Positions 42,461 to 44,977 of a stretch of 64,000 nt of DNA are shown here, piece after piece. Below the pieces are notes generated by a model. The model was not told where the DNA came from, did no database searches, and saw only the letters and a program-made list of their open reading frames with translations. The translations under genes were made by a program, and so were the position numbers. Positions within the stretch are counted from its first letter, which is position 1. The number at the start of each line of letters is the position of its first letter. Source of the DNA: Sphaerisporangium perillae (GTDB lineage: Bacteria > Actinomycetota > Actinomycetes > Streptosporangiales > Streptosporangiaceae); contig NZ_JALLPO010000034.1 of the NCBI RefSeq assembly GCF_023276435.1, positions 1 to 64,000 on the forward strand, read 5' to 3'.

Positions 42461-42923
42461 GCGAAATCTCCGATGATCGAGCCCGGCTTGGCGCCTGGGC
42501 TAATACGGAGCGCCGAATCGGCTCCCGGGAAGATGCCGAATCCGACGTCTATGTCTGAAGACGCTAGCCGAGGCGACCTGGATGGGCATCCCACGGAGGC
42601 AAAAGCCGGGACCTGGATCGTCAAGCAATTCGACCAGCCGACATTTCCGATTTCGCGGGAAATGAGCGGTTTGAACCGGACTTCCGCACGCGCGCGAGGA
42701 GCGGCTGGAGGTTCTCGCCGGCGCACGCGCGTGCTGCCGCGCACGGTCCGAGCCTGGGCCGGCTCCGGTCATCGAGAGGGCCCGTAAATTCGGGTGCGTC
42801 CTGTCACGGCGATCTGTACCGTTGATCTCGAGTTCAGGGCGAAAGGAGCCGGTTTGTGATGATTGATCATCGAGAATGCGTCCGGCGCTGTTCGGTATCC
42901 CTGAGACCCGCTGCTTGGTGAAC
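42461..42923. other. Region upstream of the Y RNA array
   Basis: About 460 bases without a convincing gene. It must contain the promoter of the minus-strand secreted protein and, nearer 42923, that of the RNA array. A short dyad GATGATTGATCATC is at 42858-42871. No tRNA or Y RNA motif was found before 42924. Confidence 0.45.
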
Positions 42924-43059
42924 GCTTCCCCGGTGCGCAGACCGCGGATACTTCGCTCTGCTAAAGCGAGGGTCCGGGTTCGACTCCCGGCGCCGGCCCC
43001 GGCCGGTGTGGTGTAACGGCAGCACTTCTGTTCCGCGGTCGTCTCGATCTCGGGGAGCC
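42924..43059 (+). ncRNA. Y RNA-like (YrlA-type) tRNA mimic, unit A
   Basis: The ends pair to form an outer stem (CCCCG 42928-42932 with CGGGG 43051-43055, extended by T-A and T-G). An internal loop follows (GTGCGCA on the 5' side, GTCTCGATCT on the 3' side), then a perfect 9-bp inner stem (42940-42948 with 43032-43040, GACCGCGGA/TCCGCGGTC). The body is a rearranged tRNA. A 7-bp hairpin with a seven-base loop CTGCTAA (42951-42971) comes first. A perfect T-arm follows (42974-42990, loop TTCGACT), then an acceptor-like stem closed on itself (CGCCGGCC 42991-42998 with GGCCGGTG 43001-43008), two bases, and a D-arm (43011-43025). The order is that of a tRNA opened between D-arm and anticodon arm. 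The presumed role is to bind Ro60 and present a tRNA-like surface to a nuclease or other partner. Confidence 0.82.
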
Positions 43060-43074
43060 ACAACTTTATACGCA

Positions 43075-43188
43075 CCTTCCCGGTGCGCTGACGGCGGATA
43101 CTTCGAGGTTCGATCCCTTCCGGTTCCCCATAGGGAGCCATTCGCCCAGATAGGTGGGCAGGCCACCGTCGCTTCGATCTCGGGAGGG
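43075..43188 (+). ncRNA. Y RNA-like tRNA mimic, unit B
   Basis: Same plan as unit A with different bases. The outer stem is CCTTCCCG (43075-43082) with CGGGAGGG (43181-43188). The internal loop is GTGCGCT with GCTTCGATCT. The inner stem pairs GACGG (43090-43094) with CCGTC (43166-43170), then one mismatch and two more pairs. The T-arm is short (43105-43119, loop TTCGATC). The acceptor-like stem is GGTTCCC (43122-43128) with GGGAGCC (43133-43139), loop CATA. The D-arm is GCCC/GGGC (43144-43159). It lacks the anticodon-like hairpin seen in A and C, and is the most compact unit at 114 bases. Confidence 0.8.
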
Positions 43189-43204
43189 GATTCGACTTCA
43201 GAGC

Positions 43205-43342
43205 GTGCCCGGTGCGCAGGCAGCGGTTACTTCGAATCGAAATCGAGAGGTCGCGGGTTCGACTCCCGCCGTCTCGGGAGACCGAGGCGTAGCTCAGCCG
43301 GTTAGAGCACTATGTACCGCCGCCGACTTCGATCTCGGGCAC
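43205..43342 (+). ncRNA. Y RNA-like tRNA mimic, unit C
   Basis: Outer stem GTGCCCG (43205-43211) pairs perfectly with CGGGCAC (43336-43342). The internal loop is GTGCGCA with GACTTCGATCT. The inner stem is GGC-A-GCGGT (43219-43227) with ACCGC-C-GCC (43316-43324), one A-C mismatch. Then comes a 5-bp hairpin with loop ATCGAAA (43231-43247), a perfect T-arm (43253-43269, loop TTCGACT), an 8-bp acceptor-like stem closed by GAGA (43270-43277 with 43282-43289), bases T and A as at tRNA positions 8-9, and a D-arm GCTC/GAGC (43292-43308). It ends 51 bases before the Ro60 start codon. Confidence 0.82.
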
Positions 43343-43393
43343 TCACTCTGGACGACGGCTCCTCCCGGCACGACCTTTGAGAGGAGTTGTTCC

Positions 43394-44977
43394 ATGATGG
43401 CGAAGTTCAACCGGAAGGACGCGCGTACCGTGACGTTCAGCCCGGTCACCACGGAGACGGTCCCGTCCGGCCGCACGCACGAGGGCGCCCCCGGATACGT
43501 TCGCGATGCCAAGAGCGAGCTCTTCCTCCTGGCCGTGTCGAACATGGTCGGCGAGGACACTTTCTACGAGAAGGCGCGAGGCCGGGACGAGCGTTTCCGC
43601 ACCCTCGTCCACCAGGTCGCGGTCGAGGACGTCGGCTGGCTGGCCGGGTTCCTGCCCTGGCTGCGCGGCGAGGCCAACATGCGTACGGCGCCGATCGTCG
43701 CCGCGCTCGAGGCCGTCAACGCGCGTCTCGCCGCTGGGCTGGACGGTGGCAACCGGCAGCTCGTGGCGAGCGTGCTCCAGCGCGCGGACGAGCCCGGTGA
43801 GGCCCTCGCGTACTGGATCTCCACGTACGGCCGCGCGGTGCCGAAGCCGGTCAAGCGGGGCATCGTCGACGCCGTGCGCCGGCTGTACAACGAGCGGTCC
43901 CTGGTCAAGTACGACACCGACGCCAGGGGTTTCCGGTTCGGCGACGTCATCGATCTGGTCCACCCCACCCCCGACCCCGGCAGGCCGTGGCAGGGGGAGC
44001 TGTTCCGGCACGCGCTGGACCGGCGGCACGACCGCGGCAATCCCATCCCCGGTTCGCTGCGGATGCTCCGGGACCGTGCCGAGCTGCTCGCCCTGCCGGT
44101 CGCCGAGCGGCGCGGCGTCCTCGCCGACGCGGGGCGGCTCGCGTCCGCGGGGATGACGTGGGAGGCGCTCGCCGGCTGGCTCCAGGGGCCGATGGACGCG
44201 GCGGCCTGGACCGCGGTGATCCCGTCGATGGGGTATATGGCCAGGCTGCGGAACCTGCGGAACTTCGACGAGGCGGGGATCTCCGACGAGGTCGCCGAGC
44301 AGGTCGCGGCGGAGATCACCGACCCGGCCGAGGTGGCGCGGTCGCGGCAGCTTCCGTTCCGGTTCTACTCGGCCTACCGGGCGGCGCCGACGCTGCGGTG
44401 GGGCCACGCGCTGGACAAGGCGCTGACGCTGGCGACGGGCAACGTCCCGTCGTTCCGGGGCCGGACCTTGATCCTGGTCGACACCTCGGCGTCCATGTCC
44501 GGCGGGTCCATCTCGGCCCGCTCCATGGTCACGCCCGCGCAGGCCGCGGCGTTGTTCGGGGTGACCCTGGCCGTGCGCGGAGACAAGGTGGACCTGTACG
44601 GCTTCGCCGACGGCGTGTTCCGGCACGGCGTCAAGCGGGGAGCCTCCGTGCTCAAGGAAGTCGAGCGGTTCTGCGGCCGGATCGGAGAGGTGGGCCATGG
44701 CACGCGGATCGCCGCGTCGGTGCGCGCCACCTACAAGGGGCACGACCGGGTCGTGATCCTGTCGGACATGCAGACGATGAACGGCTACGGGGGCGACGTC
44801 ACCGGGGCGGCGCCCGGGCATGTGCCCATGTACGGCTACAACCTGCAGGGCTACCGGCACGCGGCCATGCCGACCGGCCGCGGGAACCGCCACGAGTTCG
44901 GCGGGTTCTCCGACACCGCCTTCCGGATGATCCCCATGCTGGAGGCGGGCGCGTCGGCCTCGTGGCCGTGGCTGTAG
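43394..44977 (+). CDS. rsr: Ro60/TROVE-domain protein (Rsr)
   Basis: Ring-shaped RNA-binding protein of 527 residues. Bacterial Ro60 binds Y RNAs and misfolded RNA, and with PNPase or other nucleases takes part in RNA quality control and stress recovery. The N-terminal HEAT-repeat ring spans about residues 30-355 (for example FLPWLRGEANMRTAPIVAA and ISTYGRAVPKPVKRGIVDAV). The C-terminal von Willebrand A domain has the MIDAS motif LVDTSASMSGG near residue 363 and ILSDMQTMNGYGG near 456. GAGAGGAG lies seven bases before ATG 43394; a second ATG follows at once. The Y RNA array directly upstream supports the call. No rtcBA RNA-repair genes are adjacent. Confidence 0.95.
   Translation: MMAKFNRKDARTVTFSPVTTETVPSGRTHEGAPGYVRDAKSELFLLAVSNMVGEDTFYEKARGRDERFRTLVHQVAVEDVGWLAGFLPWLRGEANMRTAPIVAALEAVNARLAAGLDGGNRQLVASVLQRADEPGEALAYWISTYGRAVPKPVKRGIVDAVRRLYNERSLVKYDTDARGFRFGDVIDLVHPTPDPGRPWQGELFRHALDRRHDRGNPIPGSLRMLRDRAELLALPVAERRGVLADAGRLASAGMTWEALAGWLQGPMDAAAWTAVIPSMGYMARLRNLRNFDEAGISDEVAEQVAAEITDPAEVARSRQLPFRFYSAYRAAPTLRWGHALDKALTLATGNVPSFRGRTLILVDTSASMSGGSISARSMVTPAQAAALFGVTLAVRGDKVDLYGFADGVFRHGVKRGASVLKEVERFCGRIGEVGHGTRIAASVRATYKGHDRVVILSDMQTMNGYGGDVTGAAPGHVPMYGYNLQGYRHAAMPTGRGNRHEFGGFSDTAFRMIPMLEAGASASWPWL

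Follow-up and report, generated by a model that had tools for sequence, protein, structure and literature searches.

In the window analysed here, a stretch of 64,000 nucleotides from Sphaerisporangium perillae, a Ro60/Rsr gene is preceded on the same strand by three tandem structured RNA units, U1 to U3 (Table 1). The encoded protein has a TROVE domain (PF05731, 48.5 bits) and a weak vWA match (VWA_2, 20.5 bits, under the cut-off of 27), and it is related to the solved structures 9l5y, 9kop and 2nvo. A protein search returned at least 7118 relatives at E ≤ 0.001 (7118 of 8000 scored candidates); among the Ro60 matches listed, two proteins of 917 and 922 aa (P0035 and P0066) carry LAGLIDADG homing-endonuclease domains, which are probably inteins. 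U3 ends 50 nt before the ATG of Ro60. The Ro60 reading frame stays open through U3 (43154-44977), so gene callers may place the protein start too early. Right after Ro60 lies a convergent macro-domain gene (PF01661, 45035-45577). A scan of 42600-43450 found neither a promoter nor a terminator.

Table 1. Positions of the RNA units, their parts and the Ro60 gene in the window.
Feature	Position	Strand	Remarks
Y RNA unit 1 (U1)	42925-43058	+	Full layout: Ro60 stem, anticodon arm, T-arm, closed acceptor, D-arm
U1 anticodon-arm hairpin	42951-42971	+	7-nt loop CUGCUAA at 42958-42964, triplet GCU; drawn in the MFE structure
U1 T-arm	42974-42990	+	Folding and covariation in relatives
U1 closed acceptor-like stem	42991-43008	+	Folding and covariation in relatives
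U1 D-arm	43011-43025	+	GTGTAACGGCAGCAC; nearest host D-arm is that of tRNA-Gln, at a low score (12.5)
Y RNA unit 2 (U2)	43075-43188	+	Layout without anticodon arm
U2 T-arm	~43105-43119	+	Position by eye
U2 acceptor	43122-43139	+	Position by eye
U2 D-arm	~43144-43159	+	Position by eye
Y RNA unit 3 (U3)	43204-43343	+	Full layout; Rfam YrlA match of 37.3 bits over 43246-43311
U3 anticodon-arm hairpin	43231-43247	+	Loop AUCGAAA at 43236-43242, triplet CGA, A at position 32
U3 T-arm	43253-43269	+	Rfam YrlA match and folding
U3 closed acceptor-like stem	43270-43289	+	Rfam YrlA match and folding
U3 D-arm	43292-43308	+	GCTCAGCCGGTTAGAGC; Rfam YrlA match and folding
Ro60/Rsr gene	43394-44977	+	TROVE and weak vWA match; 527 aa if translation starts at the ATG at 43394, as assumed

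The first-pass annotation had described three tandem units sharing one fold between 42924 and 43342. The array is real, with outer stems, T-arm, closed acceptor-like stem and D-arm found in all three units, and its units are better bounded as in Table 1. The internal loop of the outer stem was also confirmed, with GTGCGCA or GTGCGCT facing CTTCGATCT or TCTCGATCT. The single fold holds for these common elements and not for the remainder, as in U1 and U3, but not in U2, a further hairpin separates the inner stem from the T-arm. This hairpin, lying 5′ of the T-arm, occupies the place of a tRNA anticodon arm; both the arm and the differing layout of U2 had been overlooked. The anticodon loop of U1 is identical to that of the host tRNA-Ser(gct). 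In U3 the anticodon arm (−2.6 kcal/mol) competes with a rival hairpin (−4.3 kcal/mol, each in isolation), and it is the rival that is drawn in the MFE structure. ARAGORN reads U1 as tRNA-Ser(gct) and U3 as tRNA-Ser(cga); an assignment as tRNA-Ser genes was rejected because the order of the arms is permuted and the acceptor is closed. Fold stability is modestly better than that of dinucleotide shuffles (z of −3.1, −2.1 and −2.1 for U1, U2 and U3), and the main evidence for the units comes from their relatives.

Chen (2014) reportedly described Y RNAs close to Ro60 in over 250 bacteria and phages, each of which has one or more that are tRNA-like. Among 315 genomes of the same family as the window, 120 contain Ro60 at E ≤ 0.001. 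Upstream regions were oriented for 94 loci, 60 of them fetched and 34 taken from earlier sets, the window included; partial or weak matches were excluded, and L001, L015-L021 and the shorter copies L005-L009 and L011 were left out. The anchor CGGTGCGC...TACTTC matched 146 times, and was present upstream of Ro60 in 82 of the 94 regions, the window's own among them. In the family the arrays comprise 1 to 4 units ahead of Ro60. Two of 177 anchors were dropped during parsing for want of a 3′ end, and the later unit parser also excluded units without a TACTTC-like motif.

Other actinobacterial genera, too, have units upstream of Ro60. A pattern scan of named genomes that ignored Ro60 found at least 120 stretches; the 80 that were listed all come from Actinomycetota, judged by record titles. 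A Ro60 match (E<1e-3) lies within 87 of the 120 stretches examined. Among the first 80, Ro60 was found at E<1e-5 in 60; the unit is on the same strand in 60/60 and was computed to lie upstream in 59/60, the exception (L153) being a partial match. Some stretches with units contain no Ro60 match; in Streptomyces, for instance, units are found next to metK-like and priA-like genes. Four of the stretches with no Ro60 match (L117, L164, L186 and L205) have dfp-, metK- and priA-like genes in common (names by eye from the proteins of L205), and the anchor pattern separates the metK-like gene from the priA-like one; the parser recovered units from all of these except L164, and the second unit of L186 and of L205 has a Leu/Ser-like D-arm. 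The proposal of tandem tRNA-mimicking Y RNAs upstream of Ro60 is thus borne out, with a PF05731 gene following the units in the window and arrays of such units standing ahead of the Ro60 genes of relatives. U1, U2 and U3 are members of an actinobacterial Y RNA family.

Within this family a unit may be full, as U1 and U3 are, may lack the anticodon arm, as U2 does, or may be a mini unit of 71-81 nt. Spacing between UACUUC and the T-stem is bimodal: of the 227 units with a T-arm, 17 have exactly 3 nt there and 183 have 18-25 nt. Many mini units retain just the Ro60 stem and an anticodon-type hairpin; among 60 of them the best hairpin has a 7-nt loop in 29 and another loop size in 12, and 19 have none by the criterion used. 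In L207 the mini unit sits where the stretch ends and is probably a full unit cut short.

Covariation was assessed on an alignment (A3) of 44 full units less than 80% identical, including U1 and U3 and not U2. For this, 46 units had been picked by divergence from 99 of suitable length and spacing, and L186 and L217 were removed by hand. The structure imposed on A3 consists of the Ro60 stem, inner stem, anticodon helix, T, acceptor and D stems and the 15-48 pair. Loci in which paired positions change without compensation, which the first-pass annotation had named as evidence against its reading, were not seen: 96.7% of 1619 cells are paired and 24 of 37 pairs have changed on both sides. The covariation score was 0.511, against 0.161 for shuffled and 0.058-0.111 for slid alignments, and covariation is present in every stem of these divergent units. 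The permuted tRNA-like module, in the order T-arm, acceptor and D-arm, was found in units of the U1/U3 type. Chance folding of the units is ruled out by this covariation together with their conservation among relatives.

The anticodon helix is the weakest part of the A3 structure (86.1% paired), and RNAalifold run on A3 with no imposed structure left this arm out; the probable cause is that it occurs in more than one register. When 68 ungapped segments at a fixed distance to the T-arm were compared, the anticodon helix was paired in 87.6% of cells and the anticodon and T helices together scored 0.370, against 0.148 shuffled; the number of pairs changed on both sides (5) was reached by 69 of 500 shuffles, and the other four of the five measures by none. 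At the far end of the unit, the terminal stem covaries and its internal loop is nearly invariant across the 44 units. This loop resembles what we take to be the Ro60 site of eukaryotic Y RNAs, and by that analogy the terminal stem with its internal loop is the putative Ro60 site. The elbow (Levitt) pair, which joins positions 15 and 48 far apart in the permuted sequence, could be counted in 180 full units after 24 parsed units with no D-arm match had been set aside: 76 have A15-U48, 96 have G15-C48 and 8 another combination (172/180 paired; kinship ignored).

A covariance model (R1) was built from the 44 units of A3, with U1 and U3 in and U2 out. In the window's 9.3-Mb genome, where the best 150 of 13435 first-look candidates were scored, the three units are the top three hits (U3, 141.1 bits, E 3e-25; U1, 97.9 bits, E 2.4e-16; U2, 48 bits, E 5e-6). 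Below them come 26 hits up to E 1, every one of which overlaps a host tRNA gene (by eye), many of them over the part from anticodon arm to T-arm. Of the 315 family genomes, 143 have an R1 hit at E ≤ 1e-7. At thresholds chosen after inspecting the lists (R1 E ≤ 1e-14, Ro60 E ≤ 1e-40), 92 genomes have both RNA and Ro60, 13 Ro60 only, 1 RNA only and 209 neither, a co-occurrence that may be biased toward Ro60 genomes by the training of R1 mostly on Ro60-adjacent units. The RNA-only genome (G074) holds a weak Ro60 match, and in 7 of the 13 Ro60-only genomes the best Ro60 match is merely 40-44% identical. Weak R1 hits (E 1e-13 to 1e-8) occur in genomes without Ro60, for which back-to-back tRNA genes are a possible cause. 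Some family genomes, such as G227, G229 and G032, have a second Ro60 paralogue about 42% identical.

The anticodon-type hairpin was then scored in 310 distinct units as the best hairpin after UACUUC. It has a 7-nt loop in 93 units, against 9.8 expected from shuffles (kinship ignored), and 124 units have no hairpin by the criterion, against 188 expected. Loops of 3 nt are also over-represented (33 vs 15.9 expected), which may reflect pairing inside 7-nt loops. Of these 93 loops, 76 have C32, 84 have U33, 75 have a purine (A or G) at 37 and 77 have A38; the combination Y32-U33-R37 is present in 67, compared with 9% of shuffled 7-nt loops.

A second criterion, a 7-nt loop closed by at least 4 pairs, selected 119 units with 90 distinct stem-loops, 80 of them with U33. 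When these 80 loops were compared with the 40 anticodon loops of the 57 tRNA genes in the window's genome, 36 were identical to a host loop; 25.2 would be expected with recombined frames and triplets (maximum 33 in 2000 draws) and 14.0 with random triplets (kinship ignored). Positions 36 and 37 are coupled: of 17 loops with G36, 14 have G37, and of 51 with A, C or U at 36, 44 have A37 (Fisher 4e-7, kinship ignored; 12 of the 80, in which 37 is a pyrimidine, excluded). The same rule is obeyed by 40/40 host tRNA loops. Strictly canonical loops occur in 80 of 172 loci, and in all seven loci having two or more of them the triplets differ.

Across 161 pairs of units whose bodies are 18% different, the triplet differs at 0.67 of sites, the stem at 0.20 and U33 at 0.10; among the 10 closest pairs, with bodies 7% different, the figure for the triplet is 0.067. 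One body type may be found with different triplets. The body isotypes of 63 units are led by the Glu and Asn types, and triplet and body isotype agree in 11 of the 63, where 4.9 were expected (p 0.004, kinship ignored). Strict isotype mimicry was dropped in view of this low agreement. ARAGORN recognised a tRNA in 166 of 187 full units once de-permuted and in 40 as they stand; with two ways of joining, 171/188 were read as tRNA. After de-permutation it accepted 164/187 with the anticodon segment swapped and 125/187 with it shuffled, and its calls are weak evidence for that reason.

Related arrays are carried by actinophages. A Ro60 match was found in 74 phage records, and all ten of the regions examined from these contain such arrays: 38 of 40 TACTTC-type sites upstream of Ro60 have a handle-like motif, spread over 10/10 regions. 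Full-length R1 hits reach 113.6 bits (VanLee). The best hairpin has a 7-nt loop in 9 of 38 phage units, and 5 of those 9 have Y32-U33-R37 (CTGCAAA and CTCTGGA in Quantum, CTTCTAA and CTGCAAA in VanLee, CTGGAAA in Frankenweenie); the loop of BRock, ATGATAA, has A32. Other annotated tRNA genes are present in 9/10 regions, VanLee being the exception. In GiJojo, Alone3, VanLee and Frankenweenie the annotated tRNAs directly upstream of Ro60 overlap R1 hits, and these four annotations are probably misannotated Y RNAs, as judged with the model. The overlapped annotations (L406, L409, L410, L414) are tRNA-Arg(cct), tRNA-Arg(tct), tRNA-Pro(tgg) and tRNA-Ser(gct). Near the Ro60 gene of Alone3 lies an annotated TerD-family gene (L414, 7273-7581), and a TerD-like gene (by eye) lies downstream of Ro60 in 17 of 86 named Ro60 loci. 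No toxin or nuclease partner was recognised by eye in the 14 largest neighbour clusters of these 86 loci.

Judged from sequence and its conservation, the units are almost certainly Ro60-linked Y RNAs with a permuted tRNA-like module, which in U1 and U3 includes an anticodon arm. They are presumably expressed and bound by Ro60. The closest known relative is YrlA (RF02553; structure 6CU1), which is likewise Ro60-linked, with a terminal Ro60 handle followed by a permuted T-arm, closed acceptor and D-arm. The Rfam model matches U3 (37.3 bits, E 1.7e-6) and weakly U1 (19.9 bits, E 0.19), and gave no match to U2; twelve matches in loci of 14 relatives score 31.5-51.8 bits. All lie below the gathering score of 69, and the units are accordingly filed as a Y RNA variant rather than as RF02553. 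PMC8394870 likens YrlA to the D, T and acceptor arms, and the shown part of the RF02553 consensus has no anticodon arm; U1 and U3 possess one. Compared with tRNA, the units share the 15-48 elbow pair, GG in the D-loop, the T-loop, V-loop and a 7-nt anticodon loop with 36-37 coupling; they differ in being circularly permuted, with a closed acceptor and a Ro60 handle in place of the linear order and open acceptor/CCA end. No description of an anticodon arm in Y RNAs was met in the literature searched, including passages of PMC11472068 and PMC9569102, and an earlier report is possible.

Taken together, these observations suggest a model in which the terminal stem, with its internal loop GUGCGCA / CUUCGAUCU, would serve as the handle for Ro60. 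Beyond it, U1 and U3 would fold as a circularly permuted tRNA that starts with the anticodon arm and continues through variable loop, T-arm and closed acceptor to the D-arm, and U2 would do the same without the anticodon arm. The RNA would thereby display a tRNA elbow and, in U1 and U3, an anticodon stem-loop on the Ro60 ring. Since the acceptor is closed on itself, such a unit should not be chargeable, and U1 to U3 are presumably not charged. As bait or decoy, the ribonucleoprotein may draw off enzymes that target anticodon loops, the likeliest being the anticodon nucleases of toxins and anti-phage systems, and the variable triplets would then result from differing attackers.

We propose this decoy mechanism tentatively, as quite possible rather than probable, on four grounds: many of the loops are the same as real ones, triplets turn over, the arm is all that many mini units keep of a tRNA, and related arrays are carried by phages. 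It is also favoured by the suggestion of Hughes et al. (PMC7790460) that an anticodon nuclease may be inhibited by YrlA. Anticodon loops are likewise the targets in the case of phage tRNAs that evade anticodon nucleases, and actinophages have tRNA clusters (PMC10264068); those tRNAs are working molecules with altered loops, in contrast to units that are presumably unchargeable if the acceptor stays closed. The proposal is weakened by the lack of a recognisable nuclease or toxin partner in the neighbour clusters and by the low agreement of triplet and body isotype. Fast triplets would fit functionless drift too, the closest pairs barely differ in triplet, and canonical loops are missing from many units (124/310 without hairpin), present in 80/172 loci and few in phages (5/38). 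Furthermore, Salmonella YrlA fragments were undetected while tRNAs were cut, according to PMC7790460.

The main rival, which we regard as possible but doubtful, is a tether: through the tRNA-like part, with its anticodon arm, Ro60 would recruit a tRNA-binding effector, be it PNPase as in RYPER (Ro60-Y RNA-PNPase), a tRNA-modifying enzyme or a synthetase. The arrangement would resemble that of Deinococcus, where a Y RNA is reported to link Ro60 to an effector by tethering PNPase (PMC8394870, PMC7790460 and PMC4726728). Recognition by shape would let the triplet drift, in keeping with the conserved loop size of 7, U33 and A38 and with the different triplets on one body type. Pure shape recognition gives no obvious 36-37 coupling, however, and does not obviously predict that 36/80 loops should be identical to host tRNA loops.

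Host-equal loops, as well as Glu-type and Asn-type bodies, resemble copied tRNA parts, and the units could instead derive from captured tRNA genes, with the anticodon arm a functionless leftover. The arm can be missing, as the spacing to the T-stem shows (3 nt in 17 and 18-25 nt in 183 of 227 units). We consider this improbable, as a hairpin with a 7-nt loop is retained in 29/60 mini units that have no T-arm, acceptor or D-arm, the pairing of the anticodon stem is maintained by compensating changes, and loop size and U33 persist as bodies diverge.

The units could act in cis, as regulatory leaders of the Ro60 mRNA, and not as trans-acting RNAs, but this is very improbable. Their position directly upstream on the same strand and the lack of a terminator-like site in 42600-43450 would suit a leader; units in stretches without a Ro60 match, such as those next to metK-/priA-like genes in Streptomyces, would not, nor would a handle resembling what we take to be the Ro60 site of Y RNAs. 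Least credible of all are non-canonical tRNA genes or permuted pre-tRNAs processed to working tRNAs, a reading that accommodates the ARAGORN calls (tRNA-Ser for U1 and U3; 166/187 de-permuted, 40/187 as they stand) and is contradicted by an acceptor closed by a short loop, a conserved long handle, an anticodon that seldom tracks the body and the acceptance of 125/187 shuffled units by the same program.

That the anticodon arm has loops resembling those of real tRNAs, and is retained even in units with no other tRNA feature, points to the anticodon loop as a functional surface. Some actinophage features annotated as tRNAs are probably Y RNAs; TROVE proteins are also known from jumbo phages, where Ro60 has been placed with RNA repair and a tRNA-like partner, the passage concerned (PMC7824862) making no mention of an anticodon arm. 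The presence of Ro60 with such RNAs in many actinobacteria and some viruses suggests that Ro60 displays tRNA look-alikes. Returning to the decoy model, in actinobacteria and their phages the arrays of Ro60-bound anticodon Y RNAs might, though we rate this broader view as rather unlikely, constitute a changing decoy repertoire that would absorb or report anticodon nucleases in conflicts among phages, hosts and toxins.
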